From positions 1 to 39,914 of IMG/VR virus record IMGVR_UViG_3300021168_000011: 39,914 bases of DNA, one strand, 5' to 3'. The translations under genes were made by a program, and so were the position numbers. The first letter of the stretch is position 1. Every line of letters begins with the position of its first letter. Below are positions 2,032-19,160 of the stretch, in pieces. Under the pieces are notes generated by a model. The model was not told the origin of the DNA. It did not search any database and worked only from the letters and a program-made list of their open reading frames with translations. Source of the DNA: a virus.

Positions 2032-2063
2032 ACTGGCTACTGGTCACTGACCACTGGCCACTA
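2032..2063 (+). repeat. Heptamer repeat R1 (orientation A)
   Basis: Four tandem 7-mers (ACTGGCT, ACTGGTC, ACTGACC, ACTGGCC) plus ACTA fill the gap between two genes and end 8 nt before the ATG at 2072, which has no Shine-Dalgarno sequence. One of six related arrays in the window. Confidence 0.85.
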
Positions 2064-2071
2064 CTTTTTCC

Positions 2072-2965
2072 ATGGGCTACATTGTCGAAGAAGTCGCGCC
2101 CGTCGCTGAGCCGCTGCTGCTCAGCGATGTAAAGAACTTCCTGAAGGTGAGCGTCAACAATGACGACAGCTTCATTCTGGAGCTCATCCAGTCGGCGCGC
2201 GAGTACGTGGAGGGCTTCACCGGCCGGTCGCTGGTGAACAAAGGCTACCGGCAGTCGCTCGATTCGTTTCCCTACTTTGTCGACAGCGTCATGTCGCAGA
2301 TGGCGTACCCGCCCAGCTATTACTCGCTGCCGCGGTATTCCACTACGCTGTGGAACTATTCGCAGATGATCAAACTGCTGCGGGCGCCGCTGCAGTCGAT
2401 CACCAAGATCACGTATTCCGACAGCGTCACTGGGCAGATCAAGGCGCTCTATCCGGCGCTGTTCAGCTGGCAGCCTCTGCACGAGTACTCGCTCACCGAT
2501 CAGATCGAGGATCCGAACGGCAACTTGCAGGTGGTGACGGCCGTCGCCGAGGGTGATGAAGATTCGACCTCGATGTCGGGAGTAAACCAGCCCACCTGGC
2601 CAACTCTTACGGGCAACGCCGTGACGGATGGAGGCCTCACCTGGACCTGCATGGGGCCGGTGCCTGATGCCGGCGATTTTATCTATGACTACGATTCGGT
2701 ACCGCCGCGCATTTTCCCGCTGGCTGGCCAGACCTGGCTGCCGGTGCTCTATGTTCCGAACGCCGTGCAGATCCATTTTGTCGCCGGCTACGGAAACGAC
2801 GGCAAAGCGGTTCCAGCGTCGCTTCGACAAGCCATGCGGTTGTTGATCGCTGACGGCTATTACAACCGTGAGCCCGTCGTCTCCGGCACGTTCAAGGAAA
2901 CGCCGGCGCTGATGCGCCTGCTCTATCGCTGGAAAGTTCAGATCAAAGCCGGCACCCGCGGCTAA
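2072..2965 (+). CDS. Head-tail connector, gp6/phiE125 gp8-like, with inserted module
   Basis: This 297-aa protein matches the connector family that docks under the portal (HK97 gp6 / phiE125 gp8-like). The N-terminus has the typical PLLLSDVKNFLKV ... DDSFILELIQSAREYVEGFTGRSL, and the C-terminus the helical VPASLRQAMRLLIADGYYNRE segment. Between them, residues ~133-196 form an insertion with W-x4-Y, QPTWPT and DGGLTWTCMG motifs, also seen twice in the tail-tip protein at 16990. Usual connectors are about 200 aa, so the extra length is this insertion. No ribosome-binding site is visible; the heptamer array R1 sits just upstream. Confidence 0.88.
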   Translation: MGYIVEEVAPVAEPLLLSDVKNFLKVSVNNDDSFILELIQSAREYVEGFTGRSLVNKGYRQSLDSFPYFVDSVMSQMAYPPSYYSLPRYSTTLWNYSQMIKLLRAPLQSITKITYSDSVTGQIKALYPALFSWQPLHEYSLTDQIEDPNGNLQVVTAVAEGDEDSTSMSGVNQPTWPTLTGNAVTDGGLTWTCMGPVPDAGDFIYDYDSVPPRIFPLAGQTWLPVLYVPNAVQIHFVAGYGNDGKAVPASLRQAMRLLIADGYYNREPVVSGTFKETPALMRLLYRWKVQIKAGTRG

Positions 2966-2985
2966 TTTCACCAGGAGAACTCACC

Positions 2986-3447
2986 ATGTTTTCGATCGAC
3001 AAAAAGAAGCCCAGCTTTCTCAGGAAGGCCACTTGCCTGCTCGCCGCGGTGCTGATGTTCGCGACCAGCGCCTTTGCCACGCCCACGTTGCTCAGCACGC
3101 AGGTGCTGGTGATCAACAACACCAACCCGGCGGCAGGCGCTTTGGCCATCACCTTCGCGGCTTGCGATGCGGTCAACGGTAACACCTTCACGTTCACCGG
3201 CCGCGAGATCCTGATCGCGAACAACACGGATTCGAGCACCCACACTTTCACCATCACGCCGGTGGCAGACCAGTGGGGCGGGACGAACACTTCCTTCACC
3301 ACCTACTCGCTGGCGGTCAGCGGTTCCACGGGATCCTATTCCGCGGTGCAGATGAAGTACTCCTTCGGTTGGCTCGCTGCCGGCGGCGTCGTCAACCTCA
3401 CCTGTAGCTCGAACCTGATTAAGTTCGCAGTGCTGCAGACGAACTAG
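2986..3447 (+). CDS. Secreted-type protein with signal peptide, unknown function
   Basis: This 153-aa protein has AGGAG 8 nt before ATG. Residues 1-31 form a classic Sec signal peptide (FSIDKKKPSFLRK, hydrophobic core, cleavage after SAFA). The mature part is Thr/Ser/Asn-rich, likely all-beta, with single cysteines near C58 and C140. It sits between two genuine head-tail genes, so it is expressed with virion proteins yet carries an export signal. The function is unrecognised; the mature part resembles beta-sandwich phage structural or adhesin-like proteins. Confidence 0.8.
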   Translation: MFSIDKKKPSFLRKATCLLAAVLMFATSAFATPTLLSTQVLVINNTNPAAGALAITFAACDAVNGNTFTFTGREILIANNTDSSTHTFTITPVADQWGGTNTSFTTYSLAVSGSTGSYSAVQMKYSFGWLAAGGVVNLTCSSNLIKFAVLQTN

Positions 3448-3843
3448 ATGCCGCTGCGCCGCCTCAGTGCTGGATTGCCCCGCCCGGACCAGTACACGCC
3501 GATCGGGGCGATGAATCGTCAGGTCACGTTCTATTCGCCTGGAGTGCGCAGCGCGACCGACGGCACTACCGGGGCGCCACAGGCTGCATTCAGCACCTGG
3601 GCGGCACTCTACGCCATCGCCGGCGTCGAGATTGAAAAAGCTCAGCAGATTGCGCAGAAGGTCTCGCACCTGGTGGTGATCCCTTACCAGCTGGGCGTCG
3701 AAGAGAACATGACGATCCAGTACCTCGACAACGGCGCTACGCGGATATTCCAGATCGAGGCCGTCGACGATCCCGACGAGCTGCGCGTGCAGCTCAAGAT
3801 CTATTGCTTCGAAATCGGCCAGAACGCCGGCGCCGGAAGCTAG
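3448..3843 (+). CDS. Head-tail adaptor / head closure protein
   Basis: This 131-aa protein belongs to the head-tail joining family (PF05521, SPP1 gp16-like), which closes the portal channel and joins the tail. Typical features are NRQVTFYSPG near the start, FSTWAALYAIAGVEIEKAQQ in the middle, and an EAVDDPDELRVQLKIYCFEI ending. The ATG directly abuts the preceding TAG; an internal ATG at 3511 (residue 22) would place the family motif at the very N-terminus and could be the true start. Confidence 0.88.
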   Translation: MPLRRLSAGLPRPDQYTPIGAMNRQVTFYSPGVRSATDGTTGAPQAAFSTWAALYAIAGVEIEKAQQIAQKVSHLVVIPYQLGVEENMTIQYLDNGATRIFQIEAVDDPDELRVQLKIYCFEIGQNAGAGS

Positions 3844-3856
3844 GAGAGAGAATTCT

Positions 3857-4795
3857 ATGAAATCGAAATGGTTCACACCGATCGGGCTGCTGTTCTTCTT
3901 GCTGCTCTGTCTCGTTCCGAGCGGGCAGGCGCAACAGACGCCTGTATCGCAGGCCGCCGGGATGCCCTGGCAGATCGGCCAGGCCTTTGTATTCTCGTCG
4001 TCGTCGATTGCGAGCGGAGCCTTTAATGCGAAAGGCATTCTCTACTGGAAGCTGATCTTCGTGCCCGACGGCACGGTTTCCAGTTGTTCTGTGAGCTTGG
4101 ATTCCTCGGCGACTGGCAGCAGCTTTTCCATCGGTGGAATTGTCAGCTCGGCGACGATCGGATCCTGTGCCAGTGCTGGCAATTACGTCACCAGCACCGC
4201 CGTCACCCCGACTAATTTTGGGCAGCTCACGCCCACCATCACTGGCACCGGTCATGTGACGCTGGTTCTTTTCGGCTACACAGAGAATCCAGCTCTATCG
4301 AGCGGCGCCGCGTCGAATGTGAACATCACGAACTCTTCTTTGCCGCTTCCCACTGGCGCCGCGACGGCTGCGAACCAGGCCGCACCTGGAACGGCAGGGA
4401 CTCCTGGCTCTCAGGTCTCCAGCATTCAAGGCATCACCGGGATGACGCCGGTCAAGACGGACGGATCCGGAGTGACGCAGCCCGTGAGCCTCGCAACGGC
4501 GCCCACTACGCCTACGCAGCCAGCGGGCTTTTCCGCGGGCATCGACTTCAACCAGACGGTCACCACCTCGGCTGTAGCCCTGGCCTCCAACGCTTCGCAC
4601 AGCTTCAGCGTGTGCGCGTACTGGGAGAACACCACCTCGATTTTCGTTGGACCCTCGGGAGTGACCACCTCGGGAAGCACAAAGGGCACTGAACTTCAGC
4701 CCGGCCAATGTGCCGGCTGGCTTCTGAACAACACCAATCTTCGCTACGTGATTGCCACCGGGTCCGGACAATCTGTGAATGTCACGGGGAGCTAG
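3857..4795 (+). CDS. Signal-peptide protein with phage structural motifs
   Basis: This 312-aa protein is preceded by GGAGAG. Residues 1-25 form a signal peptide with predicted cleavage after SGQA, before QQTPVS. Residues ~155-200 contain LPTGAATAANQ and VSSIQGITGMTPVKTDGSG, a linker type common in phage structural and fibre proteins. The C-terminus (FVGPSGVTTS ... NLRYVIATGSGQSVNV) resembles small beta domains in virion proteins. I infer an exported or virion-attached surface protein; the exact role is unknown. Confidence 0.82.
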   Translation: MKSKWFTPIGLLFFLLLCLVPSGQAQQTPVSQAAGMPWQIGQAFVFSSSSIASGAFNAKGILYWKLIFVPDGTVSSCSVSLDSSATGSSFSIGGIVSSATIGSCASAGNYVTSTAVTPTNFGQLTPTITGTGHVTLVLFGYTENPALSSGAASNVNITNSSLPLPTGAATAANQAAPGTAGTPGSQVSSIQGITGMTPVKTDGSGVTQPVSLATAPTTPTQPAGFSAGIDFNQTVTTSAVALASNASHSFSVCAYWENTTSIFVGPSGVTTSGSTKGTELQPGQCAGWLLNNTNLRYVIATGSGQSVNVTGS

Positions 4796-4803
4796 GAGCT
4801 AAG

Positions 4804-6888
4804 ATGCGACTCAGCGAACTCAAATCTCTCTTGCTCACCGCCGCAATGCTGTTCAGCTTTGTGTTGCAGGCTAGTGCGCAACAACTGCCCGGCGGGAATT
4901 ATGTCGGACCGGCTCCCACGATCGTGAACAAGGGCAATCCCTGCGTTGGCAACGCGACGGGCAGCGGCTGCGCCACCAGCGGAGCCTACATTGACGTCAC
5001 GGTTTTCATTCCAACTAGCTATACCCCTGGTGGGACCAGCGACTACTGCAATCCCGTGGGAGCAATGACCGCGGCTGGTACTGCCGGCAACATGTATCAC
5101 TTCGAAAACCTTCCTCCCACGGTCGCCTGCAACTCGCTGTGGATCGCTGCCGGCGGAAGCTTTTCTGGCGTGCTCTACCCTGGTACCACGACCTTCATGG
5201 TCAACAGCAATTCAGGCGCGCAGGCGATTCCTGGCACCACGCACGTGTACGGTGCGGGAAAAAGCAGCGGGGCAGCTCTCTTCACCGCGAGCTCCGGCAC
5301 TGTGATTGCGGCTTGCCAGTCCGGCGTGACCTCAGCAACGATTCTCGCGAACATCTGCGGCGGCACTTCTTTCGTTCCATCGAAAACGACTGACGGCAAC
5401 AACTATGGCGCGCTGATGTGTCTTTCAAACCTGGTCTGCAGCGCCGGCACCTCGGGAGGATCGAACGGGTTCGACGCGCAGGTTTGGGGCATGACCCTGA
5501 GCTGCTCTTATATTCCGAATTGTGTTGACTTCGCCAACTACTGGATGCAGAACCTAAGTGGTCTTTTCCGGTCGGCGGTTAACGGCTGTTCGTACACGAA
5601 CAACATCTGTGTGGACCTGGGCGGCGGCATTGGGCAGGCGCAGGAGTCAACCGTCTCCGATCTCTTCATCTACAACCCTGGCATCACGGGATGCAATCGC
5701 TCTCCTACGGCCGTGGGAGTGCGGGTCTGGACTACGGGCGGGAGTAACGGGGCGCCTTTCTCCATTCAGGACGTGACTGTCGTTGACAACTGCAGCAACG
5801 GCACGAACATGAATGACCTGATCGAGATCGCCAACAACACCGGCGGGATCCGGATCTCCGATATCCATGGCGAGAGTGGCGCGCGCTGCATGATCTGCAT
5901 CGGACTTTATAGCAACATGTCCACTGGTACGGAGGTGGATACGGGGGCTGTTGCTGGGCAGATCCTGATCGAGAACGTCGACGCGGGGCCGGGCTTCGGG
6001 ACCACGGGAGTGGGCACGATTCTCATCGCCTCAACCGCGAATTATTCCGGCGCATCGGTCGGCAATGTGACGATCATGAACACGCGGCAGAGTTCGTCGA
6101 CGGCGCCTCAGTATCTCGTTTACGATCAAACCAGCGGCAACACCCCGATCTTAGCGTCGAGCAACAAATTTGTTGGGCTCTACGGGATCAGGGCCAACGG
6201 CACCGTCTGGTTCGACAGTACTCAGACCAACACCAGCAATCTGGGTCCGATCGCCGCTCTGCTCAACGGCAACACCTATCCAGCTTCGGGGGGATTCACC
6301 TCGGGTGGCATTCCCTGTTTCACCAGCACCAGCGTGGAGGGTTCATCGACGCTGCTGGCCACAGGGCAGCTACTTCTGGGCGGAGGCTCCGGAGCCTGTC
6401 CGACGTCGGCGTCCGGCACCAGCGTCTCTAACACGGCGATCCACGCTGGTAACACCTTCCAGCTCACCAGCGGGTACACCAACGCCACCACCGGCTTGAC
6501 CACCGTCATCACCTCGCCGACGATTGCGGCCGGCGCGGTCGTTTCGTTTGAGTGCTTTGGGCTCTACGGCGTCACTGGGACGGCCGAGCAGGGCGAGTGG
6601 GGCATCACCGCATCGCAGACGCCGCAGGCTATTTCTTACGGAGTGATGGCCACCTACACGGCAGCGGGAGCTTCGAACCAGCCCGCCGGCACGGTGATCA
6701 ACGGCCACATCATTCCAGCTGGCGGCGTGGTTGCCAGCACAGCCGCGGTTTATCCCTTCGATCTGAAAGGCACGATCCAGTGGAATGCCTCCACGCCTGG
6801 CACGTTTGCTTTCGGAGCGGCCACCAGCAACGTTGCAGGGACGATGAGCATTGCAGCCTATAGCGCCGCATGCACGATTCTTCCATGA
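4804..6888 (+). CDS. Signal-peptide beta-helix protein, tailspike-like
   Basis: This 694-aa protein starts at 4804, 5 nt after AGGAG and 8 nt after the previous stop; a longer in-frame opening to 4708 overlaps the upstream gene and is rejected. Residues 1-25 are a signal peptide ending ASA, before QQLPGG. Residues ~100-450 are rich in Asn/Gly with turns and short strands (ISDIHGESGARCMIC, GQILIENVDAG, GNVTIMNTRQ), as in right-handed parallel beta-helices such as pectate lyase-like and tailspike proteins. The last ~150 residues look like a jelly-roll domain. I infer a receptor- or polysaccharide-binding spike; catalytic residues cannot be assigned. The export signal is unexpected. Confidence 0.82.
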   Translation: MRLSELKSLLLTAAMLFSFVLQASAQQLPGGNYVGPAPTIVNKGNPCVGNATGSGCATSGAYIDVTVFIPTSYTPGGTSDYCNPVGAMTAAGTAGNMYHFENLPPTVACNSLWIAAGGSFSGVLYPGTTTFMVNSNSGAQAIPGTTHVYGAGKSSGAALFTASSGTVIAACQSGVTSATILANICGGTSFVPSKTTDGNNYGALMCLSNLVCSAGTSGGSNGFDAQVWGMTLSCSYIPNCVDFANYWMQNLSGLFRSAVNGCSYTNNICVDLGGGIGQAQESTVSDLFIYNPGITGCNRSPTAVGVRVWTTGGSNGAPFSIQDVTVVDNCSNGTNMNDLIEIANNTGGIRISDIHGESGARCMICIGLYSNMSTGTEVDTGAVAGQILIENVDAGPGFGTTGVGTILIASTANYSGASVGNVTIMNTRQSSSTAPQYLVYDQTSGNTPILASSNKFVGLYGIRANGTVWFDSTQTNTSNLGPIAALLNGNTYPASGGFTSGGIPCFTSTSVEGSSTLLATGQLLLGGGSGACPTSASGTSVSNTAIHAGNTFQLTSGYTNATTGLTTVITSPTIAAGAVVSFECFGLYGVTGTAEQGEWGITASQTPQAISYGVMATYTAAGASNQPAGTVINGHIIPAGGVVASTAAVYPFDLKGTIQWNASTPGTFAFGAATSNVAGTMSIAAYSAACTILP

Positions 6889-7316
6889 AAAACAAATCTG
6901 CCAACAAGTCGCAGTCGTCGATTTCACTGGCTTCGCGGGCGGCCGTTCTTGTTCTCGGGCTCGTCCTCGTGATCGTCTGCTTATTCCAGGCGCGCCGGCA
7001 TCATCAGAAAGTGGTGCGGGTAAGCCGGCATTCCACTCACTTCGTCACCGGCATTCCCGATCGCGGTCCTGAACTTGTTTTCGGCCAGGATCCGGACGAG
7101 CCCATCCAAACGGTTTATGACGCAATGGCATGGGTCCACGGCCAGGGCGGCGGCCGGGTGCAGGTTGAGCCGCATACGCTGGGCAAGGGCAAGCACCGCG
7201 ACTATTTGGGTTGTGATCCTGGCCGCGCGCACGCATCCTGGTGGGCTCGATTTTGGGATGGCGAGAGCGACGGCCGCTGTTATTCCGACGTCTACGTGAC
7301 AGTGAAAAACCCGTGA
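6885..7316 (+). CDS. Small single-pass membrane protein
   Basis: This 143-aa protein starts at 6885, where ATGA overlaps the TGA of the preceding gene; an ATG at 6870 is possible. Residues ~14-33 (RAAVLVLGLVLVIVCLF) form one transmembrane helix after a basic N-terminus. The soluble part is His- and Gly-rich, with RDYLGCDPGRAHASWWARFW. No family recognised. Coupling to the spike-like gene suggests a related role. Confidence 0.72.
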   Translation: MKNKSANKSQSSISLASRAAVLVLGLVLVIVCLFQARRHHQKVVRVSRHSTHFVTGIPDRGPELVFGQDPDEPIQTVYDAMAWVHGQGGGRVQVEPHTLGKGKHRDYLGCDPGRAHASWWARFWDGESDGRCYSDVYVTVKNP

Positions 7317-7331
7317 TGTCTGATGCTGCCC

Positions 7332-7544
7332 ATGACCAAGCGGCAATTCGATCGTGAGAGATTGCGCCAGGTGCGCGAGCGCGAGCTGCGACTTCTCGAG
7401 CAGAGCCGCGCGGCCGCGGATCCGACCTATGTGATCGGAGGCGCTGGCTTCTGGCTGCGTAAGTCACCCGGCTCGCCGGATCCAGTGCGGAACTGGCGAC
7501 TGCGCGCGGATCTGATCTCAGTCCCGCAGTACTTCGGAGCCTGA
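7332..7544 (+). CDS. Small basic protein, unknown
   Basis: This ~70-aa protein starts at ATG 7332, with an alternative ATG at 7323. It has an N-terminal charged helix (RQFDRERLRQVRERELRLLEQ) and a C-terminal WRLRADLISVPQYF. It lies between the membrane protein and the tail terminator. The function is not recognised. Confidence 0.6.
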   Translation: MTKRQFDRERLRQVRERELRLLEQSRAAADPTYVIGGAGFWLRKSPGSPDPVRNWRLRADLISVPQYFGA

Positions 7545-7549
7545 AAGCC

Positions 7550-7978
7550 ATGTTGCTCCAAGGCCTCTACGGGCTGCTGGCAAAAACGGTCGCGGTGACT
7601 TCCCTGTTGGGCAAGCCAACCGGGCAGGATGGACCGCCGATTTATTTCGGTGAAGCTCCGAAGCAGCCGGTTGTGCCCTTTCTCGTGATCCACAGAATCA
7701 CCACGCTGCCGGCGGGAGAGACTCTCGACGGCGTAAGCGATCTGATCGACGGCGAAATCCAGTTCGACAGCCGCGCGGCCGATCAACCGGCGGCCCAGAA
7801 GCTTTCGCGCGCAGTGCGCGACACGCTCAAGAACTATGGCGGCGCGCTGCCTGACAACACGACGATCCAGTTCACCGAAGTGGCAGCGGATTTCGATGAC
7901 GGTTTCGAGCTCGGTGGCCAGGGCTATCTCTTCCGCTGCATCCTGCGTCTGAAAGCCTTCTACACCGAGGGCGCCTGA
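7550..7978 (+). CDS. Tail terminator / completion protein (DUF3168-like)
   Basis: This 142-aa protein has the features of the DUF3168 family, which caps the head-proximal end of the tail tube. An N-terminal helix (LLQGLYGLLAKT) is followed by PPIYFGEAPKQPVVPFLVIHR, IDGEIQFDSRA and a C-terminal YLFRCILRLKAFY strand. Size and position just before the tube protein fit. Confidence 0.85.
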   Translation: MLLQGLYGLLAKTVAVTSLLGKPTGQDGPPIYFGEAPKQPVVPFLVIHRITTLPAGETLDGVSDLIDGEIQFDSRAADQPAAQKLSRAVRDTLKNYGGALPDNTTIQFTEVAADFDDGFELGGQGYLFRCILRLKAFYTEGA

Positions 7979-8042
7979 TCAGCTTCGAGTTCTCTCTCAA
8001 AAAACAACGACTTCCTGCAACTTTCACCAAGGAGACAATCCA

Positions 8043-8645: not shown

Positions 8646-8654
8646 AGGAGCTTC

Positions 8655-10448: not shown

Positions 10449-10456
10449 AACTAGCA

Positions 10457-10480
10457 ACTGATCGCTGGCCACTGGCCACT
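10457..10480 (+). repeat. Heptamer repeat R2 (orientation A)
   Basis: ACTGATC, GCTGGCC, ACTGGCC and a partial unit stand between the gp10-like gene and the tape measure gene. The array ends about 5 nt before ATG 10486, which has no Shine-Dalgarno. Confidence 0.85.
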
Positions 10481-10485
10481 GCTTT

Positions 10486-12483
10486 ATGAGCGTTTCCGTA
10501 GGATCGATGTCGGCCGGTCTCGGTCTGGATCTCACCGAGTTCCAGACCGGGATGCAGAAGGCGACTGAGCTTGCGCGTACCAACAGCACGCTCATGTCGG
10601 CCGAGATGAAGCGGCAGAGCCGCGAAGGCGCGGAGTCTCTGCGCCTGATTGACGAAGCGATCGGTGTGCACATTTCCCGTCCGCTCACTCGCATCATCGG
10701 CCAAAGCCAGCTGGTGGGGGGAGCCCTGGCCGGCATCTTCGCTTTTTCCGCCGGCGCCGCGATCGCGACGGTCTTTGTCGAGCAGGGCAAGCGCCTGCTC
10801 GAGATGACAGGCGCCCTCGAGGGCTGGAAGGCTATGCTCGGCCTCGCTGGCGAGACGGCGGAAGAGACGGCCAAACTCATGGGCACGGCCGATCAGGAAC
10901 TCATCACCAACCTGCACCGGAAGATCGAGCTGCAGGATGAATACAATCGGCTGATTTTGGGCATGAAGGGCGGAGACTTCGAACGTGCTCACCTCGAACT
11001 GCTGAAACAGGAGACTGCCGAGCTGCAGAAACAGTGGCAGGCGCAGATCGCGCTCACCGGGGCGCGTGCCAATGAGACGGGCTGGCGCGGCACGGCCGTC
11101 AATCTTGCCCAGGTTGCCGGCGGACCGGGGGCTGTGGGCGCATTGGGCCTGATCGGTATCACCGCGGCGAAAGATCAGCAAGAGCAGGTCGTCGCAGCCA
11201 ACAAAATGGCCGAGGCGATGAAGCCGCTCTACGACGCGATCAAACGCATTGGTGACGAGATCCAGAAAAGCGGTTGGAAGATATTCCGTGACGATGCTGA
11301 TGCCGCCGCCGCGGCCGCGAAGGCCGACATTCAGGATCTGCAGGGCGATCTCAAGCGATGGAATGAAACCGCTGACGGCTCCTGGAAGTCGTGGATGAAG
11401 ACCAACGACGAACTCGAAAAAGCGATGGCGAAGATGCGCGAGGTGGGCACTCTGGCCGAGAGCGCGCAACGCGAGCAACGCGCAAAAGCGTTGAACTTTC
11501 CGGCGATCGACACCGTTGGGCCGCCTCCCGGTGCCCCACGGCTCAGCGACCAGGAAGAGCTTGAGAAAGTCACCAACGATCAAAACGAGTCGTGGAAGAA
11601 GGCGGGCGAGATCCTGCAGCAGATCGAGACCCCGGCGCAGAAGTATGCCGCGCAGCTCGCCATTCTCAAGGAACTCGAGAGCCAGGGCAGAATTACCACG
11701 GCTCAATTCGCGCAAGCGCACCAGTTGCTGAACGAGCAACTCGCACAGGGCGAAGACAAGCTCGAGAAGCTGCTCAAGAAGACCGGGGACGCCTCCGCCG
11801 GCATGCAGGCATTCTTTTTGCAGATGCAGAAGACCGCCGGCCGCGACGGCGCCTTCACCTTTGACATTCTCAACAAGGGCCTCGACGGTTTCGAGAACAA
11901 CACGGTGACGGCGCTGACCGGTGGCAAAGCGCAGTGGCAAAGCTATTTTGACGAGCTCGCCAAGATGGCGCTGAAGTTCGAACTCAACAAGCTGCTCACT
12001 AGCGGCCTGACCGGGCTGAAGGGTATCTTCGGCGGCGGCGGCCAGCAAGCTACTGCTGCCACGCAGGCCACGGCCGCGACGATCATGCAGTCTGCGGCCG
12101 CAACTCAGCTTGCGGCTGCGAACATCATGGCTGCTGGTGGCACGGCCGGGGGAGCTGGTGGTGGATTCAATCCCTTCAGCTTAACGGCCTTCAGCGGCGG
12201 ACTGGCCGGCGGTGGCGATCTCACGCCTGGCGCTTCCTACATCGTGGGCGAGCAAGGTCCGGAGCCTTTAACAGTGGATCAGTCCGGGCAGGCATTCATC
12301 TCGCCGCACTCTTCATCGACTCGTACTGGTGGTGGAGACATGTACTTCCACATCGATGCCAAGGGGGCGGAGCTGGGTGTGGAGGAAAAGATCGTGCGAG
12401 CGCTGCAAGCGGCGCGCCCGCGGTTTATCGGAGAAGCCGTTGCCAACTTCAACGAGATCCAGCGCCGGACGGTGCAGCGCTAG
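10486..12483 (+). CDS. Tail tape measure protein
   Basis: This 665-aa protein sets tail length. It is largely alpha-helical with coiled-coil stretches (residues ~130-190 and ~265-450), a hydrophobic segment at ~76-97 (GGALAGIFAFSAGAAIATVF), a Gly/Ala-rich stretch near 520-570, and the characteristic tape-measure C-terminus with GGDLTPGASYIVGEQGPEPL. By the usual ~1.5 Angstrom per residue this predicts a tail near 100 nm. The start lacks a Shine-Dalgarno and follows repeat R2. Its stop codon overlaps by two bases the stop codon of the reverse-strand gene 12480-12701. Confidence 0.92.
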   Translation: MSVSVGSMSAGLGLDLTEFQTGMQKATELARTNSTLMSAEMKRQSREGAESLRLIDEAIGVHISRPLTRIIGQSQLVGGALAGIFAFSAGAAIATVFVEQGKRLLEMTGALEGWKAMLGLAGETAEETAKLMGTADQELITNLHRKIELQDEYNRLILGMKGGDFERAHLELLKQETAELQKQWQAQIALTGARANETGWRGTAVNLAQVAGGPGAVGALGLIGITAAKDQQEQVVAANKMAEAMKPLYDAIKRIGDEIQKSGWKIFRDDADAAAAAAKADIQDLQGDLKRWNETADGSWKSWMKTNDELEKAMAKMREVGTLAESAQREQRAKALNFPAIDTVGPPPGAPRLSDQEELEKVTNDQNESWKKAGEILQQIETPAQKYAAQLAILKELESQGRITTAQFAQAHQLLNEQLAQGEDKLEKLLKKTGDASAGMQAFFLQMQKTAGRDGAFTFDILNKGLDGFENNTVTALTGGKAQWQSYFDELAKMALKFELNKLLTSGLTGLKGIFGGGGQQATAATQATAATIMQSAAATQLAAANIMAAGGTAGGAGGGFNPFSLTAFSGGLAGGGDLTPGASYIVGEQGPEPLTVDQSGQAFISPHSSSTRTGGGDMYFHIDAKGAELGVEEKIVRALQAARPRFIGEAVANFNEIQRRTVQR

Positions 12484-12701
12484 CGCGTGATGGCCCACCA
12501 CAAACCACCGAGTACGGCGGGCAAGACGAGAAACCAGAGGACAAGGTTGCGCACGATGTATTTCGCATCGGCTGAGACTTGTGTGCGCGGATCGAACAGA
12601 TGCGCTTCCATGGCCGTGGGCGCCGGCGGCGCAGCCGCTTCGCGTGCGGCATCATCGAGCGCCGCGCCGGGTCTTTCGTTGAGCCAAGCTTTGACGCTCA
12701 T
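12480..12701 (-). CDS. Small membrane protein of reverse-strand moron
   Basis: This 73-aa reverse-strand protein has a soluble, Ala/Pro-rich N-terminus and a C-terminal transmembrane helix (residues ~50-70, NLVLWFLVLPAVLGGLWW). Its ATG overlaps the TGA of the upstream gene (ATGA at 12698-12701 in reverse), so the two form an operon. It ends exactly against the tape measure stop codon. No family recognised. Confidence 0.75.
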   Translation of the reverse strand: MSVKAWLNERPGAALDDAAREAAAPPAPTAMEAHLFDPRTQVSADAKYIVRNLVLWFLVLPAVLGGLWWAITR

Positions 12702-13165
12702 TGCTTCACCTCGGAGGAGTCCTGTTTGTTCCAGAGCGGAGCGTTCGCGGTCGATCGTGCGGCGGGCCGGCGCTTCTTCCAGTCGGCGAGAATTGCCTTG
12801 CAGCCATCCTTCGCCGCCCGCGCCACGGTTCCCTGTTTGCTCGAATAGAGCACGTTCTTCTCGTGATCGAGGAGCATAAACTGGCTGACGGCATTGCGGA
12901 ACAGCCCGTATTCGTCGCCACGATTGAACAGCAGAGAGTAATCGATCTGCGCGTTATCGTCTCGCGTGATCGAGATCTCCGGGCAGGACTTCAGCAAGTT
13001 CCGCGCCAGCTCCATGGTCTGATCGTCACGGCGGACGTGTTTGGTCTCGCGTGCGGCCTCTGGTTCGCTTCCGTTGCCGTCGATAAAGACCAACGGCCGC
13101 GCCGGCTGCTGTTGAGCCTGAAGCAGCGTGCCAAAGAAGATCGCAGTGGTAAGGGCGAGTTTCAT
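12698..13165 (-). CDS. Secreted moron protein, Acidobacteriota-like family
   Basis: This 155-aa reverse-strand protein starts at 13165 (a longer opening to 13186 is less likely). Residues 1-17 are a signal peptide (KLALTTAIFFGTLLQAQ). The mature part has ETKHVRRDDQTMELARNLLKSC followed by PEISITRDDNAQIDYSLLF and NAVSQFMLLDHEKNVLYSS. This resembles a family of small secreted proteins with a DxADYxxxL core that I associate with Acidobacteriota genomes, from memory and unchecked. Opposite strand and own promoter mark it as a moron, probably expressed from the resident phage. Confidence 0.8.
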   Translation of the reverse strand: MKLALTTAIFFGTLLQAQQQPARPLVFIDGNGSEPEAARETKHVRRDDQTMELARNLLKSCPEISITRDDNAQIDYSLLFNRGDEYGLFRNAVSQFMLLDHEKNVLYSSKQGTVARAAKDGCKAILADWKKRRPAARSTANAPLWNKQDSSEVKQ

Positions 13166-13176
13166 GAATCCGCAGC

Positions 13177-13205
13177 ATGATTCCACGGCTCCGCGGCCTC
13201 GTCAA
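13177..13205 (-). promoter_or_regulatory. Promoter of the reverse-strand moron operon
   Basis: Read on the - strand: -35 TTGACG (13205-13200), 17-nt spacer, -10 AATCAT (13182-13177), then 11 nt to the ATG at 13165. The predicted leader is only about 4 nt, so translation would be nearly leaderless; no Shine-Dalgarno is present. Confidence 0.55.
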
Positions 13206-13255
13206 GCACACGAACGAGCCAGAGACCTAAGACTCCAACTTCCCCTTTAACCTCA

Positions 13256-14344
13256 ATGAGAAACCCTGCCTGGGATGCCGCCGTACTCGACGCGAAGCGC
13301 CTGGTCGCGCGCGCGCAGAAATGCCAGCTCTATCAGTTCTGCGACAGCTTCGCAAACGATCAGGGCATCTGGGATTCCGGTTTTGGGAATGCGATGATCT
13401 GGTCTGCCAGCTATTACCGCTTCCCTCCGCCGGCAGGTTTCCCTGCAGGCGGTGTCAAGTTTGGCCTGGGGCACGTGACCAAGAACATGTTGTCGAACCA
13501 GGCGACGTTCATCCCAAAGTTCGGCATTAAGTTCATCAGTCTGCCGGGCAGCGGCGCAGCCGCATTCTTCGCGGTGCTCGACACCGGGACGGCCCAATGG
13601 ACCTTGCAGGTTACGGCGGCCGGCGCGCTCGCGATCTATTCCGGCGCCACGATCGAGGCCTCAACCGGTGTTGGCCTGATCACGACGAACACGTGGTACG
13701 GAATCGAATTGTCGGTGACGGTTTCGACTGCTGGCGGCACGGCAACCGTTTGGGTGAATGGCACTCAAGTGATCAACGTCACGGGGATCCGCACGCAGCA
13801 GTCGGCGAACGCCTACGGCAATCAGATTGGATGGGGTGACATCGGCGTCACCGGACTCTCCGGCTACATCACCGATCTGCGCGTTTGGGATAACACTGGC
13901 GCGACGCAGAATGCCCCGCTAGGCACCGACAGCCGCATGATCACCAAGATGGCCAGTGGCGCTGGCGCGGTGACTCAGTTCACGCCGAATGGAGCGGCCG
14001 CAAACTGGCAGTGCACGGATGAAGTTCCACCTGACGACGATACCACCTACGTTTCCAATTCCACGGCCGGCAATGCAGACGCTTACGCCATGCCCATCGC
14101 GGGTTTTACAGTGGCCCCGGCGATGGTGGTGGCACGCTCGCGCGCGCGCAAAGACGACGGCGCCACGCGCGCGCTTGAAATCGGAGTCGATTCTTCGGGC
14201 TCGATCGCCGTGGGGTCTCCGGTGACCATGGGCTCGAGCTATGCCTGGCTCGATACTTGCATCGCCCTGGATCCGCACACCAGCGCAGCCTGGACGGCCG
14301 CGGGCGCCGATGCGGCGCAGCACTACAAAGTCGAGAGCACCTAA
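13256..14344 (+). CDS. LamG/concanavalin-like tail protein
   Basis: This 362-aa protein contains a predicted jelly-roll lectin domain (residues ~25-220), with YQFCDSFANDQ, KFGIKFISLPGSGAAAFFAV, NTWYGIELSVTVSTAGGTATVWVNG split by a turn, and YITDLRVWDNTG. Such phage proteins bind surface glycans or decorate the tail tip. The last ~140 residues (residues ~225-362) form a second beta domain. The ATG at 13256 has no clear Shine-Dalgarno; the first ~24 residues may be an over-extension, but no in-frame alternative start is seen. Confidence 0.78.
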   Translation: MRNPAWDAAVLDAKRLVARAQKCQLYQFCDSFANDQGIWDSGFGNAMIWSASYYRFPPPAGFPAGGVKFGLGHVTKNMLSNQATFIPKFGIKFISLPGSGAAAFFAVLDTGTAQWTLQVTAAGALAIYSGATIEASTGVGLITTNTWYGIELSVTVSTAGGTATVWVNGTQVINVTGIRTQQSANAYGNQIGWGDIGVTGLSGYITDLRVWDNTGATQNAPLGTDSRMITKMASGAGAVTQFTPNGAAANWQCTDEVPPDDDTTYVSNSTAGNADAYAMPIAGFTVAPAMVVARSRARKDDGATRALEIGVDSSGSIAVGSPVTMGSSYAWLDTCIALDPHTSAAWTAAGADAAQHYKVEST

Positions 14345-14347
14345 CTT

Positions 14348-15085
14348 GTGGCCATCCGCGACACCCAGGACTGCCTCATCTTCGAGGTTGCAACGCTGGG
14401 CACCAGCCTGCTGCGCGACACGCAGGACTGCCTCATCTTCGAAGTTCCCTATACGCCCGTGTCCATCGTTTATCCCTTAACGCCGCCGGCGGCGCTCAAG
14501 CCGCAGGACGTCACCATGCACATGATGAATGTGGTGGGTGAGAACATTTCTCCGTTCGTCGCGAGCCAGCAGGAGCAACAGTGGCCCGGCCAGTGGTTCG
14601 AGCTCGAGGTGGCGCTGCGTCCGATGCTGCGTGCCGATTACGAAGCTGTCGTGGGATTCCTGGGCGCGCTGAACGGCAAATTTGGAACGTTTCTCTTCGG
14701 CGATCACAACGCCAAGACGCCGCAGGGCGTGGCCACCGGCACTCCGCTGGTGAACGGTGCGAACGCTTCCGGCAGCAATGCGATCAACCTGAAGGGTTTC
14801 ACTCCGGGTGTCACGGGAATTCTCAAAGCCGGCGACTATATGCAGATCGCGACGTCTGGAGGTCTGCAACGGCTTTATAAGAATCTCTTCGACATCAACT
14901 CCGATGGCAGCGGCAACGCCACCGCGACGGTGTTTCCTACGATCCGCGAGGCGCTGGTGGACGGCCTGTCGGTGGTGCTGAACAACACCGCGGGCACGTT
15001 CCGCCTGATGGAGAACGATATCGTCTGGAAAATTGCGCGGAGCCGATCGACCTCGATCAGCTTCAAGGCCATGGAGGCTTTCTAG
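14348..15085 (+). CDS. Minor / distal tail protein
   Basis: This 245-aa protein starts at GTG 14348, 3 nt after the previous stop. Residues ~70-245 match a widespread siphophage minor tail family, recognised by LRADYEAVVGFLGALNGKFG, TFLFGDHNAKTPQGVATGTP, the segment VTGILKAGDYMQIATSGG and a RLMENDIVWKIARSR ending. The N-terminus carries a near-perfect duplication of RDTQDCLIFEV, 19 codons apart. It precedes the hub protein, consistent with a baseplate role. Confidence 0.75.
   Translation: MAIRDTQDCLIFEVATLGTSLLRDTQDCLIFEVPYTPVSIVYPLTPPAALKPQDVTMHMMNVVGENISPFVASQQEQQWPGQWFELEVALRPMLRADYEAVVGFLGALNGKFGTFLFGDHNAKTPQGVATGTPLVNGANASGSNAINLKGFTPGVTGILKAGDYMQIATSGGLQRLYKNLFDINSDGSGNATATVFPTIREALVDGLSVVLNNTAGTFRLMENDIVWKIARSRSTSISFKAMEAF
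14357..14446 (+). repeat. In-frame 33-bp direct repeat with 57-bp period
   Basis: Bases 14357-14389 recur at 14414-14446 with two synonymous differences. Each copy encodes RDTQDCLIFEV; the period is 19 codons, so it is a frame-preserving partial tandem duplication in the minor tail gene. Confidence 0.85.
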
Positions 15086-15271
15086 GTGGCAGTTGCTAGT
15101 GGTCCGTTGCCAGTTGCCAGCTTCGACGAAACTGCCGGCCGTGCCGCCTACGAAGCTTTCACCGAGGCGGTGAAGGCCTGGAATCCCTATCCGCCAGACT
15201 GGCGCGGGCAGGCGGAGGCGGTGAAGCAAGGTTGGATCGCCGCGGCCAAGGCCGTTCGCGCGTTGTTGTAA
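15086..15271 (+). CDS. Small tail-region protein with repeat-encoded N-terminus
   Basis: This 61-aa protein starts at GTG 15086, directly after the previous stop. Residues ~16-61 (AGRAAYEAFTEAVKAWNPYP ... WIAAAKAVRALL) match a small phage protein type with a GRAAYEAY ... W ... AWxxAAxAV pattern seen in many tail operons. The first residues, AVASGPLPVAS, are encoded by heptamer repeat R3, so either the array is translated or the true start is downstream. Confidence 0.65.
   Translation: MAVASGPLPVASFDETAGRAAYEAFTEAVKAWNPYPPDWRGQAEAVKQGWIAAAKAVRALL
15091..15120 (+). repeat. Heptamer repeat R3 (orientation B)
   Basis: AGTTGCT, AGTGGTC, CGTTGCC, AGTTGCC plus AG: four 7-mers in reverse-complement orientation to R1, R2 and R5. 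They lie inside the first codons of the 61-aa gene. Confidence 0.85.
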
Positions 15272-15287
15272 GAATCCGGAATTACTT

Positions 15288-16214
15288 TTGCCTCGCTCTC
15301 TCTCACCCACATTCCTGGCGCAGCTCGGCAGCTCGGGATCTTCTTCGCCGGCGCTGTTCGTGGTGCTGGCCTTCGCCAACGAAACGCTTTACCTGTGGAG
15401 TGGTCTCGGGCCTCTGACGCCCGCGGGGCCGGCATTCAATCCGCTTTCGGCATTTCCCTATGGGCAGACCTGGACCGGGCTGGGATGGTTGGGGAAGATC
15501 TCAGCGATCCCGCAGACCACGAAGATCCAGGCGCAGAGTGTCACGCTCTCGCTCTCGGGCATTCCGAGCCAACTGCTGACCGACACGATCGGTCAGGTGC
15601 GTATCACCGGCACCGCAACCGTCTTCCTGGGATTCTTCGATTCCACGGGTGCGCTGATTCTGGATCCGATTCAGCTTTTCTATGGCGCACTCGACGTGCC
15701 CACACTCGATGATTCAGGTCAGACGTCGACGATCAGCATCACCGCTGAGAATCCGCTGCTCTCGCTAAACGAAGCGCCCGATCGCCGCTTCGATGATCTC
15801 GATCAGCAAATTTACGTGCCCGGAGATCTAGGCTTCAGCTTTGTCGACGCGCTTCCGAATCTGGCGCTCTTCTGGCCGGCGCCGACGAGCTGGGGCACAC
15901 CGTACCCGACCTCGATCACGATGTCGCCTACTTCTGTCGATATCGCCGTCGGTGGCACTGCCACAATCGAGGTTACCGTTCACTACAACGATGGCAGTTC
16001 CTACACCAGACCGGCCGGCACGGGCAGCGGTCCGCACTGGATCGGAAGCGTTGCCTCAACCAATCCTAGAGTGGCAGTCGTGGACGCCGCCGGCGTGGTG
16101 ACCGGAATCGCGCCAGGTACCTGCAGCCTGATGGCGCGCACACCAACGTTCTCCGGCGGGGGTGGTCCCATGGCTGAGAACCGCGCGGCCTGCAGCATTA
16201 TCGTCCACTCCTGA
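15288..16214 (+). CDS. Tail hub-like protein with C-terminal BIG2 Ig-like domain
   Basis: This 308-aa protein begins at TTG 15288. Residues ~1-200 match a siphophage hub/minor tail family, with LFVVLAFANETLYLWSGLG, TKIQAQSVTLSLSGIPSQLL, and ITAENPLLSLNEAPDRRFDD followed by DQQIYVPGDLGF. Residues ~215-305 form a bacterial Ig-like group 2 domain: ITMSPTSVDIAVGGTATIEV, then a NPRVAVVDAAGVVTGIAPGT signature. BIG2 domains on virions usually give weak contacts with cell-surface carbohydrate. The hub family often ends where the BIG2 part begins, so this looks like a domain fusion. Confidence 0.8.
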   Translation: MPRSLSPTFLAQLGSSGSSSPALFVVLAFANETLYLWSGLGPLTPAGPAFNPLSAFPYGQTWTGLGWLGKISAIPQTTKIQAQSVTLSLSGIPSQLLTDTIGQVRITGTATVFLGFFDSTGALILDPIQLFYGALDVPTLDDSGQTSTISITAENPLLSLNEAPDRRFDDLDQQIYVPGDLGFSFVDALPNLALFWPAPTSWGTPYPTSITMSPTSVDIAVGGTATIEVTVHYNDGSSYTRPAGTGSGPHWIGSVASTNPRVAVVDAAGVVTGIAPGTCSLMARTPTFSGGGGPMAENRAACSIIVHS

Positions 16215-16220
16215 AGAGCC

Positions 16221-16670
16221 ATGCCCCTGCAACGCTTCCAAAACTGGCCGCGGCGGCTGCACATCCTGATTCAAAGCTCGCAGGCGATCACTTTCCAGTG
16301 GGGGCTGCACGATTGCGGATTGTTCGCGGCGCGCTGGATCCGCGAGGCCACAGGGCTCGACCTAGGGGCGCCCTATCGTGGCACGTATTCGACTGAGGCG
16401 GGCGCTGACGCTGTTTTTCTCGCCGGCTATTCCGACCTGGGCAGCTTTGCCGCGGCGATCGCGGCCGCCAACTCCATGCCGGAAGTGCCGCCAACATTTG
16501 CTCGTCGCGGAGATGTCGTGTGGGTTGACAACAGCACGCCACTGAATCCCAGTCCATACGGAGCGCTGGGGGTGGTGGGCCTCGACCCTCGCTTCGCGCA
16601 CTGCATGGGCGCCCAGGGCACGGTGCGCGTGCACATGAGCCGCTGGAAACGTGCCTGGCAGGTGGGATGA
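16221..16670 (+). CDS. DUF6950-like NlpC/P60-type tail protein
   Basis: This 149-aa protein starts 6 nt after the hub gene. It has a Cys-peptidase-like pattern: WGLHDCGLFAARWIREATGL, where C32 would be the nucleophile, followed by RRGDVVWVDN and GALGVVGLDPRFAHCMG. DUF6950-type proteins lie in the lambda gpK position and may cut peptidoglycan peptides during DNA entry. Position between hub and tip protein supports this. I judge activity plausible but unproven. Confidence 0.78.
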   Translation: MPLQRFQNWPRRLHILIQSSQAITFQWGLHDCGLFAARWIREATGLDLGAPYRGTYSTEAGADAVFLAGYSDLGSFAAAIAAANSMPEVPPTFARRGDVVWVDNSTPLNPSPYGALGVVGLDPRFAHCMGAQGTVRVHMSRWKRAWQVG

Positions 16671-16673
16671 AGC

Positions 16674-16703
16674 AGTGGTCAGTGGCCAGTTGTCAGTTGC
16701 CAG
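16674..16703 (+). repeat. Heptamer repeat R4 (orientation B), left side of reverse cassette
   Basis: AGTGGTC, AGTGGCC, AGTTGTC, AGTTGCC plus AG. The array begins 4 nt after the DUF6950-like gene, and the stop codon of the reverse-strand gene (16693-16695) lies within it. It is inverted relative to R5 on the other side of that gene. Confidence 0.85.
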
Positions 16704-16938
16704 TTTTTTGCGGAAAGAGCCTGGCAAACAGTTCGCGGATCCGGCAACGGCGCCAGCGCTTGCCTGTGGAACGGAAGATCCGAAGCTGGCCAGGTTTCAA
16801 CGCTTCGCCTTCGACATAGTGCAGCAGATCGGCAGAGGTGTTTTCTACACGCATCAATTCGCCACGGTGGTTCTCAGGTAAAGCGAACGTGACCGTGATG
16901 GGCTTATCGAATTTGATCACCATTTCGCTGCTATCCAT
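16693..16938 (-). CDS. Small reverse-strand protein in a repeat-flanked cassette
   Basis: This 81-aa reverse-strand ORF starts at ATG 16938, with an alternative at 16923. It reads as a folded domain: KFDKPITVTFALPENHRGEL, RVENTSADLLHYVEG, then a basic end (RSTGKRWRRCRIRELFARLF). No family recognised. It is the only gene between R4 and R5, on the opposite strand to the tail operon, with its own -10-like element; this is moron-like. The opposite-strand ORF 16651-16881 is considered a shadow because it begins inside the DUF6950-like gene and R4. Confidence 0.65.
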   Translation of the reverse strand: MDSSEMVIKFDKPITVTFALPENHRGELMRVENTSADLLHYVEGEALKPGQLRIFRSTGKRWRRCRIRELFARLFPQKTGN

Positions 16939-16946
16939 GACTCGTG

Positions 16947-16952
16947 ATTCTA
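16947..16952 (-). promoter_or_regulatory. TAGAAT -10 element, short-leader promoter
   Basis: On the - strand TAGAAT (five of six matches to TATAAT) lies 8 nt before the ATG at 16938. A transcript starting ~7 nt after it would have almost no leader. No convincing -35 is seen at 17 nt. Confidence 0.4.
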
Positions 16953-16954
16953 CA

Positions 16955-16987
16955 ACTGGCCGCTGGCCACTGGCCACTGGCAACTGC
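16955..16987 (+). repeat. Heptamer repeat R5 (orientation A), right side of reverse cassette
   Basis: ACTGGCC, GCTGGCC, ACTGGCC, ACTGGCA and a partial unit fill the space up to 2 nt before the ATG at 16990. Inverted relative to R4. The downstream gene has no Shine-Dalgarno. Confidence 0.87.
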
Positions 16988-16989
16988 TC

Positions 16990-19110
16990 ATGAGCAAAAC
17001 CGTTCTCGAAGTCGGACTGATTCTCGGCGGCCTGGCGGTTGCCCTGGCTGCGGGGCCCGTCGGGCTCATCGCCCTGCAGGGCAACCTGGCGATGATGAAT
17101 GCGATGATCGGCATCGGTCTCACCACCACGCTCAGCGGTGTGGGCCTCGCTCTGCGGCCGAACACGCGCACCGTGGGCGCCGCGAACACGCTCAGCTTCA
17201 GCCAGGGTCCGACGCCGCGACGCGTCATCTATGGACAATTTCAGACTGCCGGTGTGCTGACTTACGCGAGTTTCCCTCCGGCGTCGAATCTGCAGCAGAC
17301 GAACCAGTACCTGCACTTGATCTACACGCTGACCGGTCACGAGATCTCGAGCTTCGATGGTGTCTCGATCAATGGGACGGTGCGTAATTTCGGTGTTGAC
17401 CTGGTCTACCAGCCGGGCGGAGTCACAGACCTCCTCTGGCATGTGGATCCCAGCAGCAGCGGATCGGCCAACGATCTCTACTGGCAGCACATGTTCTTCG
17501 AGTTCGATTTCGGGCGCGCTGTCGGCGGAGGATCCTTCCCGAATCTCGCCGGCGGAGATCCCGCCTGGACCGCGGCCTGCAACCAGCAGGGTTGTGCCAA
17601 GGTGCACGTGATTCTCCGCTATGACTCAACGTGGAACGGAATCTTCCCCGGCGGCCAGATCCCGAACATCCAGTTCCTGGTCACCGGGAAAAATCTGATC
17701 GACACCCGCGTCCTCAGCGCATGGCTGCCTTCCACGTCGTACTTGAAGTACAACTGGCTTCTCGACAACCACGGCATTCTCTGGTACCAGACCAACACCT
17801 CCGGCACTTCGGGCGCCGCCGGCAGCCGGCCGAATTTTGAAGGTGCATCGAGCTTTCCGGCCACACTTTCTGACAACACTCTGAGCTGGACGTCCTACGG
17901 TCAGGGTCAAGGCTCGATCTCGGCTGGCGCCGACGGCAATCCGCAGGGTCACATCGTACAAGGGCGGTTGGTGAACGACGCCTGGGTGCCCGGCGCCGGT
18001 TACAGTCCTAACCTGGTGATTGAAGCGCCACTCGGCTATCTGCAGCAGGCAACGAACTCGGGAACCACGGGAGCGACGGAACCAGCCTTCAGCCTGACGC
18101 TGGGCGGCACTACCACCGACAACTCGCAGAACTGGGTGTGCCTGGGGCGGTCGTGGCACGCGATCAATCCCTCGAACCCGGCGCTCGTGGTCAACGATTA
18201 TCTGCAGGACACAGACTACGGAATGAAGGCGCAGGCGGCGACCATCGACACCAGTTCGGTGAGCGCCGCGGCCAACGTGTGCGAAGAGCAGGCGCTGATC
18301 ATCTGGAACGCCGACAACACCGTGGTCTATGAAAATCTCTACTCGTGCAACGGGATGTTCGATCACTCCTCGGTGCGTGGCAACGTGCTCACGTCGCTCT
18401 GTGGATCGATGGCCGGCTGGGTGATTCCTCCGGGAGATATGTGGCATGTGTTCGCCGGCGCCTTCCAGACGCCGACGGTGGCGCTGGGCGATACCGATAT
18501 GCGCGGTTCCATCAAGGGGGACTTCCGGCTCTCGAAGCGCGATCTGCTCAACACGGTGGGAGCGGACTTCGTGCCGGCATTCTTGCCGAGCAATCCTGCG
18601 GGATCGCTTTCACTGACGCAGGTGCCTGCGACATGGCAAAAGATGAGCGCTCCGGAGTACCAGGCCAATGGTCTCGCCGGAAAGCCCAACTACCTGAACA
18701 GCGAAGATGGCGGCCAGATCCTGCGCATCAAGCTGCAGCTCGACTTCACCACTTCCCTTTGGACGGCCCAGCGCCTGGAAAAGATCGCCATGATGCGATC
18801 GCGCTTTCCGCAGACGCTGACTCTGCCGGCGAAGCTCACAGCCCTGCAGCTTGAGGCCGGCGACACGTTCAGCTTTACGCACACTCGTTGGGGAATCCTG
18901 GCGCAGGTGTTTGAAGCGACGCAGGCCACGGTGACGCTCGACGGCTCGCACGGTGGTGGCGGGAAGGATCAGTCACCGGTGGTGGGCGTCGACATCATCG
19001 CGCGCCAGGTGGATCCGTCGATCTATGAATTCCAGGGGCCGACGTCGGCGTCGAACTATGGCGAGTACTCCCCTTACGGAATCACAGGTGTGATGACGGG
19101 GGTGGAGTGA
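16990..19110 (+). CDS. Tail tip / host-specificity protein (gpJ-like)
   Basis: This 706-aa protein is the last large tail gene. Residues 1-55 hold two hydrophobic segments (LILGGLAVALAAGPVGLIAL and a second one near 35-55). Residues ~70-240 have the tip-protein pattern PTPRRVIYGQFQTAGVLTY, HLIYTLTGHEISSFDGVSING split over a turn, and VHVILRYDS. Residues ~244-303 and ~331-386 are two related W-x4-Y ... P-x-F ... D-x4-W-x2-G modules, probably surface-binding. The C-terminal part (from ~390) is the phage tail domain with DYLQDTDYGMKA and GDTFSFTHTRWGI. It probably contacts the receptor. Confidence 0.85.
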   Translation: MSKTVLEVGLILGGLAVALAAGPVGLIALQGNLAMMNAMIGIGLTTTLSGVGLALRPNTRTVGAANTLSFSQGPTPRRVIYGQFQTAGVLTYASFPPASNLQQTNQYLHLIYTLTGHEISSFDGVSINGTVRNFGVDLVYQPGGVTDLLWHVDPSSSGSANDLYWQHMFFEFDFGRAVGGGSFPNLAGGDPAWTAACNQQGCAKVHVILRYDSTWNGIFPGGQIPNIQFLVTGKNLIDTRVLSAWLPSTSYLKYNWLLDNHGILWYQTNTSGTSGAAGSRPNFEGASSFPATLSDNTLSWTSYGQGQGSISAGADGNPQGHIVQGRLVNDAWVPGAGYSPNLVIEAPLGYLQQATNSGTTGATEPAFSLTLGGTTTDNSQNWVCLGRSWHAINPSNPALVVNDYLQDTDYGMKAQAATIDTSSVSAAANVCEEQALIIWNADNTVVYENLYSCNGMFDHSSVRGNVLTSLCGSMAGWVIPPGDMWHVFAGAFQTPTVALGDTDMRGSIKGDFRLSKRDLLNTVGADFVPAFLPSNPAGSLSLTQVPATWQKMSAPEYQANGLAGKPNYLNSEDGGQILRIKLQLDFTTSLWTAQRLEKIAMMRSRFPQTLTLPAKLTALQLEAGDTFSFTHTRWGILAQVFEATQATVTLDGSHGGGGKDQSPVVGVDIIARQVDPSIYEFQGPTSASNYGEYSPYGITGVMTGVE

Positions 19111-19117
19111 GGAAAGC

Positions 19118-19148
19118 GGTGGCCAGTGGTCAGTTGCCAGTTGCCAGT
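19118..19148 (+). repeat. Heptamer repeat R6 (orientation B)
   Basis: GGTGGCC, AGTGGTC, AGTTGCC, AGTTGCC and a partial unit, just after the tip gene. If GTG 19107 were the start, the array would encode VASGQLPVAS, almost the same peptide as at R3. Confidence 0.85.
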
Positions 19149-19160
19149 AAGGACAGGCTG

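Follow-up and report, generated by a model that had tools for sequence, protein, structure and literature searches.

Heptamer arrays flush with tail-gene junctions in a virus record, and their probable kinship with an extragenic repeat class of bacteria

The virus record IMGVR_UViG_3300021168_000011 of IMG/VR, a stretch of 39,914 bases referred to here in its entirety as the window, belongs to a soil phage and encodes in its first 20 kb the connector, neck, tape measure, distal tail, DUF6950 and J-like tail proteins (Pfam/PHROG). Six gene boundaries in this region carry arrays of tandem heptamers with an ACTG core (ACTGGCC, ACTGGCA, ACTGACC and similar), which are probably arms of a bacterial repeat class that entered phage junctions. 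An original prediction, made from the letters of the window alone, had described such a family at six boundaries. Tandem Repeats Finder (TRF) recovers period-7 arrays at all six places, and a scan for ACTG in register every 7 bases finds five, each exactly 32 bp long (four heptamers plus ACTG), and 0 in 50 first-order Markov shuffles of the window. All six arrays are one 32-bp unit, the sixth being a degenerate copy that TRF detects, the in-register scan misses and that was read by eye.

Three of the arrays lie on the plus strand and end shortly before a start codon. The first (2032-2063; heptamers ACTGGCT, ACTGGTC, ACTGACC and ACTGGCC, then ACTA) is situated 3 nt past the stop of an open reading frame (ORF) at 1780-2028 and 8 nt ahead of the ATG at 2072 that opens the head-tail connector gene. 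The second (10450-10481) fills the neck-tape measure junction, 1 nt past the stop and 4 nt ahead of the ATG at 10486, while the third (16955-16986) finishes 3 nt ahead of the ATG at 16990 of the J-like tail protein. The remaining three are on the minus strand, beyond stop codons: the degenerate array (15090-15121) 4 nt past that of the distal tail protein (15085), the next (16673-16704) 2 nt past that of DUF6950, and the last (19117-19148) 6 nt past that of J. The original prediction had the places right, except that the array it began at 10457 really starts at 10450; its inverted form AGTKGYC is simply the reverse complement of the first type. The arrays are indeed found only at junctions, as it held, but single ACTGGCC heptamers are not, since 12 of the 18 exact copies occur elsewhere (5.2 copies would be expected over the whole window). 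In all six arrays the outer end, which is the 3' end on the ACTG strand, stands 2-8 nt from a codon, three times a start and three times a stop, and CT follows the last ACTG in 3/3 arrays counted (only those with an exact final ACTG were taken). Two of the minus-strand arrays can also be read as N-terminal codons, that at 15090-15121 in an ORF at 15086-15271 and that at 19117-19148, as VASGQLPVAS, in an ORF at 19107-19433.

The arrays at 16673-16704 and 16955-16986 are the left and right arms of an inverted pair, placed at the ends of a 319-nt insert (16671-16989) between DUF6950 and J; the other four are solo arms. A minus-strand ORF of 81 aa (16693-16938) lies between the arms, its stop codon falling within the left array. 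It has no Pfam or PHROG match and no viral relative, and weak matches (35-36%) were found in 2 of 247 Acidobacteria genomes. Its coding status is uncertain: the gene caller favours a plus-strand frame over it, and it is not claimed here as a gene.

Corresponding junctions were available in a set of 11 related viral loci (L179-L189, 142 kb), of which L188 and L189 came from a second query. The J protein of the window is 60-74% identical to those of eight viral contigs and 28% identical to that of one further contig. No close cultured phage emerged, J identity being 26-30% in the best phage records among the matches listed. No ACTG array of at least three copies is present in any of the 11 loci. 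The DUF6950-J gap, 319 nt in the window, is 0-9 nt in seven of eight relatives (L179 8, L181 6, L182 0, L183 4, L184 3, L186 1 and L188 9 nt) and about 105 nt in L180; the count leaves out L185, which lacks the junction, the distant L187, and L189, which does not reach it. At the neck-tape measure junction, L181 has 4 nt where the window has 1 nt, the solo array and 4 nt, and the gaps of the other relatives are longer. By this comparison the arrays are insertions at junctions, and their polarity is outward.

A motif-free scan of the same 11 loci, covering tandem units of 4-12 bases, revealed two heptamer and two octamer arrays of other flavours, all four at gene junctions, together with arrays of other periods. 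The distal tail junction, occupied in the window by the array at 15090, holds CAGCCGT heptamers in L184 and GAGTACC heptamers in L189. Octamers of CACAGAGR form inverted pairs around a spacer past the end of J in L182 (2990-3110) and between neck and tape measure in L189 (5460-5600), in the same layout but with period 8. A long nine-base array, CGCGGGMTG, occupies 17646-18104 of L181.

The original prediction had proposed that the arrays might be recombination seams. The tight sites in relatives agree with it insofar as the arrays mark insertions at junctions; this agreement does not extend to recombination itself. An explanation along these lines would hold that the arrays serve as linkers, shared homology at gene edges through which phages swap genes, and that the cassette at 16673-16986 arrived in this way. 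Arrays do flank J (16955 and 19117) and the cassette with the 81-aa ORF, and most tail genes of L056, part of a 31-kb phage contig, are likewise flanked. Against this, no relative with genes swapped at these arrays was found, ACTG arrays are absent from the relatives, and the 81-aa ORF lacks a viral counterpart, so that linkers appear improbable as an account of the arrays.

Beyond these relatives, the repeat is widespread. A 25-base repeat pattern matched at least 119 genome stretches, from Acidobacteria, Planctomycetes, Verrucomicrobia, Puniceicoccales, Deltaproteobacteria, Chloroflexi, Poribacteria, Clostridia and others, as well as 51 viral stretches. A looser pattern matched in 15 of 15 re-searched genomes, all drawn from those pattern-bearing loci, while a reversed-pattern control gave 0 in 11 of them and 2-7 in the remaining four. 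In an even draw from one acidobacterial family, 14 of 60 genomes contained the looser pattern and none the reversed control. The original prediction, which likened the arrays to VASGQLPVAS-type translated repeats of acidobacterial genomes and suggested a host-derived origin, is thus supported on origin, whereas the repeat is not acidobacterial only. It had named absence from relatives and hosts, or occurrence inside genes, as observations that would speak against it; the ACTG arrays are absent from relatives and present in bacteria, where 58 of 195 are called inside genes. The outer-end CT of the window is found at 17 of 49 acidobacterial array ends and 8 of 95 others (P = 0.00015). Because of the bacterial occurrence and this CT frequency, the phage arms would seem to derive from a host, probably an acidobacterium.

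The bacterial arrays reproduce the layout seen in the window. Genes were called with a caller of our own, based on codon usage and without a ribosome-site model, so that starts are approximate. With a coding fraction of 0.84, the 119 genome loci contain 195 arrays of at least four units, 124 of them intergenic, 58 in called genes and 13 without a neighbour. Of the 124 intergenic arrays, 71 have their 3' end no more than 15 nt from a gene edge, and 7 have their 5' end that close. The same asymmetry appears in genome G001, a member of the acidobacterial family treated below, where 20 regions chosen for holding the repeat give 30 of 40 against 1 of 40, and in 12 viral loci picked from the 51 stretches (55 of 94 against 3 of 94). 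Since the 40 arrays of G001 occur in all gene orientations (28 codirectional, 6 divergent and 6 convergent), transcription direction is not what sets the polarity. Where two neighbouring arrays are separated by less than 400 bp, they mostly stand head-to-head, as do 43 of 54 such pairs from the genome loci and 198 of 336 from the viral loci, many of the latter loci overlapping or near copies.

These figures bear on a role in translation, which the original prediction had offered for the arrays that it saw ending 2-8 nt before an ATG without a Shine-Dalgarno sequence. The distances measure 8, 4 and 3 nt, and a Shine-Dalgarno 4-mer is present at none of the three sites, compared with 29 of 54 called plus-strand genes. 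Sense arrays before starts could therefore be imagined as initiation sites that bind S1, a cold-shock protein or a Csr protein, as has been proposed for the TAACTGA repeats of Beggiatoaceae, whose sets mostly face starts (147 toward starts and 12 toward stops in Table 1 of PMC4679880). Yet three of the window arrays come after stops. Across the 119 loci, 62 arrays point toward starts and 62 toward stops, the stops being nearer (median 5 nt against 19 nt), and the direction of the surrounding genes looks ordinary. The missing Shine-Dalgarno before J is no sign of an enhancer either, because relatives without any array there lack one too. A general function as translation enhancers is accordingly not upheld, and initiation sites have little probability as the explanation.

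Simple-sequence slippage in place, with junctions as the only tolerated spots, is another candidate. According to Mrazek (2007), as related in PMC4679880, most genomes have heptamers as their commonest long simple repeats, and in a motif-free count period 7 dominates the G001 regions (46 of 58). Slippage nevertheless leaves unexplained the outward polarity, the inverted pairing, the recurrence of one repeat type at scattered places and the usual size of four units (32 of 45 arrays in G001), and it is the least credible of the explanations considered.

A site with a fixed gene context is provided by the rpsM-rpsK junction in the family of G001. S11 was matched in 57 of 60 genomes and the 30 best loci were taken, 29 of which contained both S13 and S11. 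The gap measures 2-3 nt in six of the 29, 17 nt in one and at least 30 nt in 22. In 15 genomes it is filled by an inverted period-7/8 element of 59-119 bp, the best period at z of at least 3 being 7 in 13 gaps and 8 in two; the same 15 gaps fold at z of -3 or lower. In the 19 gaps of at least 60 nt, the pairing energy is -26.6 kcal/mol for the two arms of one gap and -15.3 kcal/mol for arms combined across genomes. Presence of the element clusters on a tree of S13, S11 and S4 (6 changes against a shuffled mean of 10.0, P = 0.009), with 13 of 17 genomes in one half of the tree and 2 of 12 in the other. No such clustering is seen for the repeat flavour, which was assigned by eye (11 changes, mean 10.8, P = 0.81), nor is 6-mer similarity among the 15 elements tied to tree distance (Mantel P = 0.19). 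In the closest pair, L238 and L239, S11 is 97% identical and the junctions share 1.6% of their 6-mers. At this bacterial site the letters of the repeat have been replaced and the layout retained.

In several acidobacterial genomes (L238, L239, L240 and others) the S11-S4 gap contains a second array element, which lies between the rpsK stop and a conserved stretch before rpsD and spares that stretch; the latter may be an rpsD leader. One genome also has an Acido-Lenti-1 RNA (RF01687) near the ribosomal genes (L253, 1969-2014).

Folding gaps of this kind raise the possibility of selected intercistronic hairpins, such as RNase III or mRNA-end elements, with a stem of 28-32 bp flush with stop and start and arms made tandem by slippage. 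In their favour stand the 15 of 29 rpsM-rpsK gaps that fold and the agreement of presence with the tree. The window pair, too, supplies the base stem in the fold of 16656-17004 (z = -2.5). Relatives of L056, a locus with array pairs at most tail junctions, 1-8 nt from many stops and starts, retain pairs at several shared tail junctions although their proteins are strongly diverged (per-gene identity mostly 31-79%). On the other side, solo arms are common, six of the 29 genomes make do with a gap of 2-3 nt, and the contexts include divergent and convergent genes. Moreover, the two arms in L056 differ in their variable letters and pair worse than shuffled arms (P = 0.99), which tells against the conservation of a perfect hairpin among phages of this type. 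Arms of G001 are no more complementary within an element than after re-pairing (P = 0.77). Element-specific hairpins are thus not kept in either case, and perfect hairpins maintained by covariation were set aside within this one genome and in L056. Selection for hairpins is unlikely to be the origin of the arrays.

Several known repeat families invite comparison. Heterocystous cyanobacteria carry short tandemly repeated repetitive (STRR) heptamers scattered between genes, whose unit, as generally known, differs from that of the window arrays. Repetitive extragenic palindromic (REP) sequences, bacterial interspersed mosaic elements (BIMEs) and REPINs are, like the present repeats, extragenic, present in many copies and capable of forming hairpins. 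BIMEs and REPINs consist of inverted pairs with a spacer. In host-type genomes the repeats described here are likewise extragenic and multi-copy, notwithstanding the arrays called inside genes. A REP arm, however, is one palindrome bearing a GTAG or CGTC tag (PMC3733652), whereas the arms here are tandem heptamers, and no linkage to Y1 transposase genes was found in element-bearing acidobacteria.

TAACTGA direct repeats occur in marine Beggiatoaceae, Cyanobacteria and Bacteroidetes (MacGregor 2015, PMC4679880). They share with the window arrays a tandem intergenic 7-base unit, a distance of a few nt from starts and an ACTG core, TAACTGA being ACTGATA in another register. They differ in having a fixed unit that faces starts, with one inverted case, while the repeats studied here comprise ACTGRYM and other flavours, form head-to-head pairs, adjoin stops as often as starts and reach into phages. 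ACTGATA is not among the window units, and three of the six window arrays are directed toward starts, which is no predominance. Cluster K mycobacteriophages possess start-associated sequences (SAS) and their extended form (ESAS), dispersed just upstream of starts (Pope 2011, PMC3203893). These too are phage repeats before starts, some inverted with a variable spacer; unlike the present ones, they are nearly absent from the host and are not tandem heptamers. The 13-bp SAS GGGATAGGAGCCC has two matches in the window at 2 mismatches (0.76 expected), neither of them at an array. Rfam yielded no RNA family at the arrays in six sources, and the literature search, confined to one library, turned up no recognised paper on elements with inverted heptamer arms, the heptamer strings matching only an unrelated mouse paper.

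Taken with these comparisons, the evidence moderately favours reading the six arrays as arms of an extragenic bacterial repeat class resembling REP/BIME, inserted into phage junctions. An arm would consist of about four tandem heptamers (28-32 bp), often with a second arm placed head-to-head across a short unique spacer, and with outer ends flush with the neighbouring coding sequences. The phage would have taken in four solo arms and one pair whose spacer measures 250 bp, leaving the flanking genes unharmed. Paired arms, whether in RNA or in single-stranded DNA, would probably form hairpins. Conceivably the repeat is copied into junctions and tolerated there because stop and start codons are spared, and paired arms might be used secondarily as an intercistronic hairpin.

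A number of observations weigh against this reading. In the window, solo arms outnumber pairs, and the spacers are unique, so that whole elements are not copies of a single master. A tile of G006 that had not been picked for the repeat shows weak asymmetry (3 against 2 in five usable arrays). Target-site duplications of at least 5 nt flank 5 of 41 genome pairs (3.1 when re-paired) and 14 of 67 viral pairs (9.1), within the shuffle range; the ATGA duplication that the eye picks out at two window arrays is not a general feature of arrays. The poor complementarity of arms in G001 and L056 counts here as well. When J was used to seek a prophage host, 5 of 396 Acidobacteria genomes matched, all of them distantly (27-38%). 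A Y1 transposase acting in cis was rejected, an array lying within 60 nt of 1 of 18 Y1 genes and 8 of 112 others in element-bearing acidobacteria. Genomes with the element have somewhat more Y1 genes than those lacking it (P = 0.028, without kinship correction). A reverse transcriptase (PF00078) was also dismissed as the maker, because its presence in genomes with the element (8 of 15) does not differ from that in the others (6 of 14; P = 0.72).

A broader proposal, put forward tentatively, is that bacteria and phages share a previously unrecognised class of junction elements, whose two arms, about four heptamers each, face outward and would be built at the edges of genes by copying or tailing. 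That process would fix period and polarity and leave the letters free, and phages might through such elements acquire genes flanked by arms, as in the cassette with the 81-aa ORF. On this view, sister species can keep the element at one ribosomal junction and yet have its letters exchanged entirely. Heptamer repeats have previously been noted singly, in cyanobacteria and Beggiatoaceae, without a rule uniting them; the polarity, the tight phage sites and the rpsM-rpsK series suggest one, namely arms flush with edges, insertion as a block and replaceable letters. How such repeats spread could then be tested at a junction that is universal and easy to sequence, and also in phages, where states before and after insertion coexist.

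The window also holds a tandem array of a nine-base unit (CCTATCTCG-like, about 15 copies) at 25211-25347. It overlaps two ORFs, 25193-25792 and 24628-25443, and perhaps encodes a repetitive protein segment.

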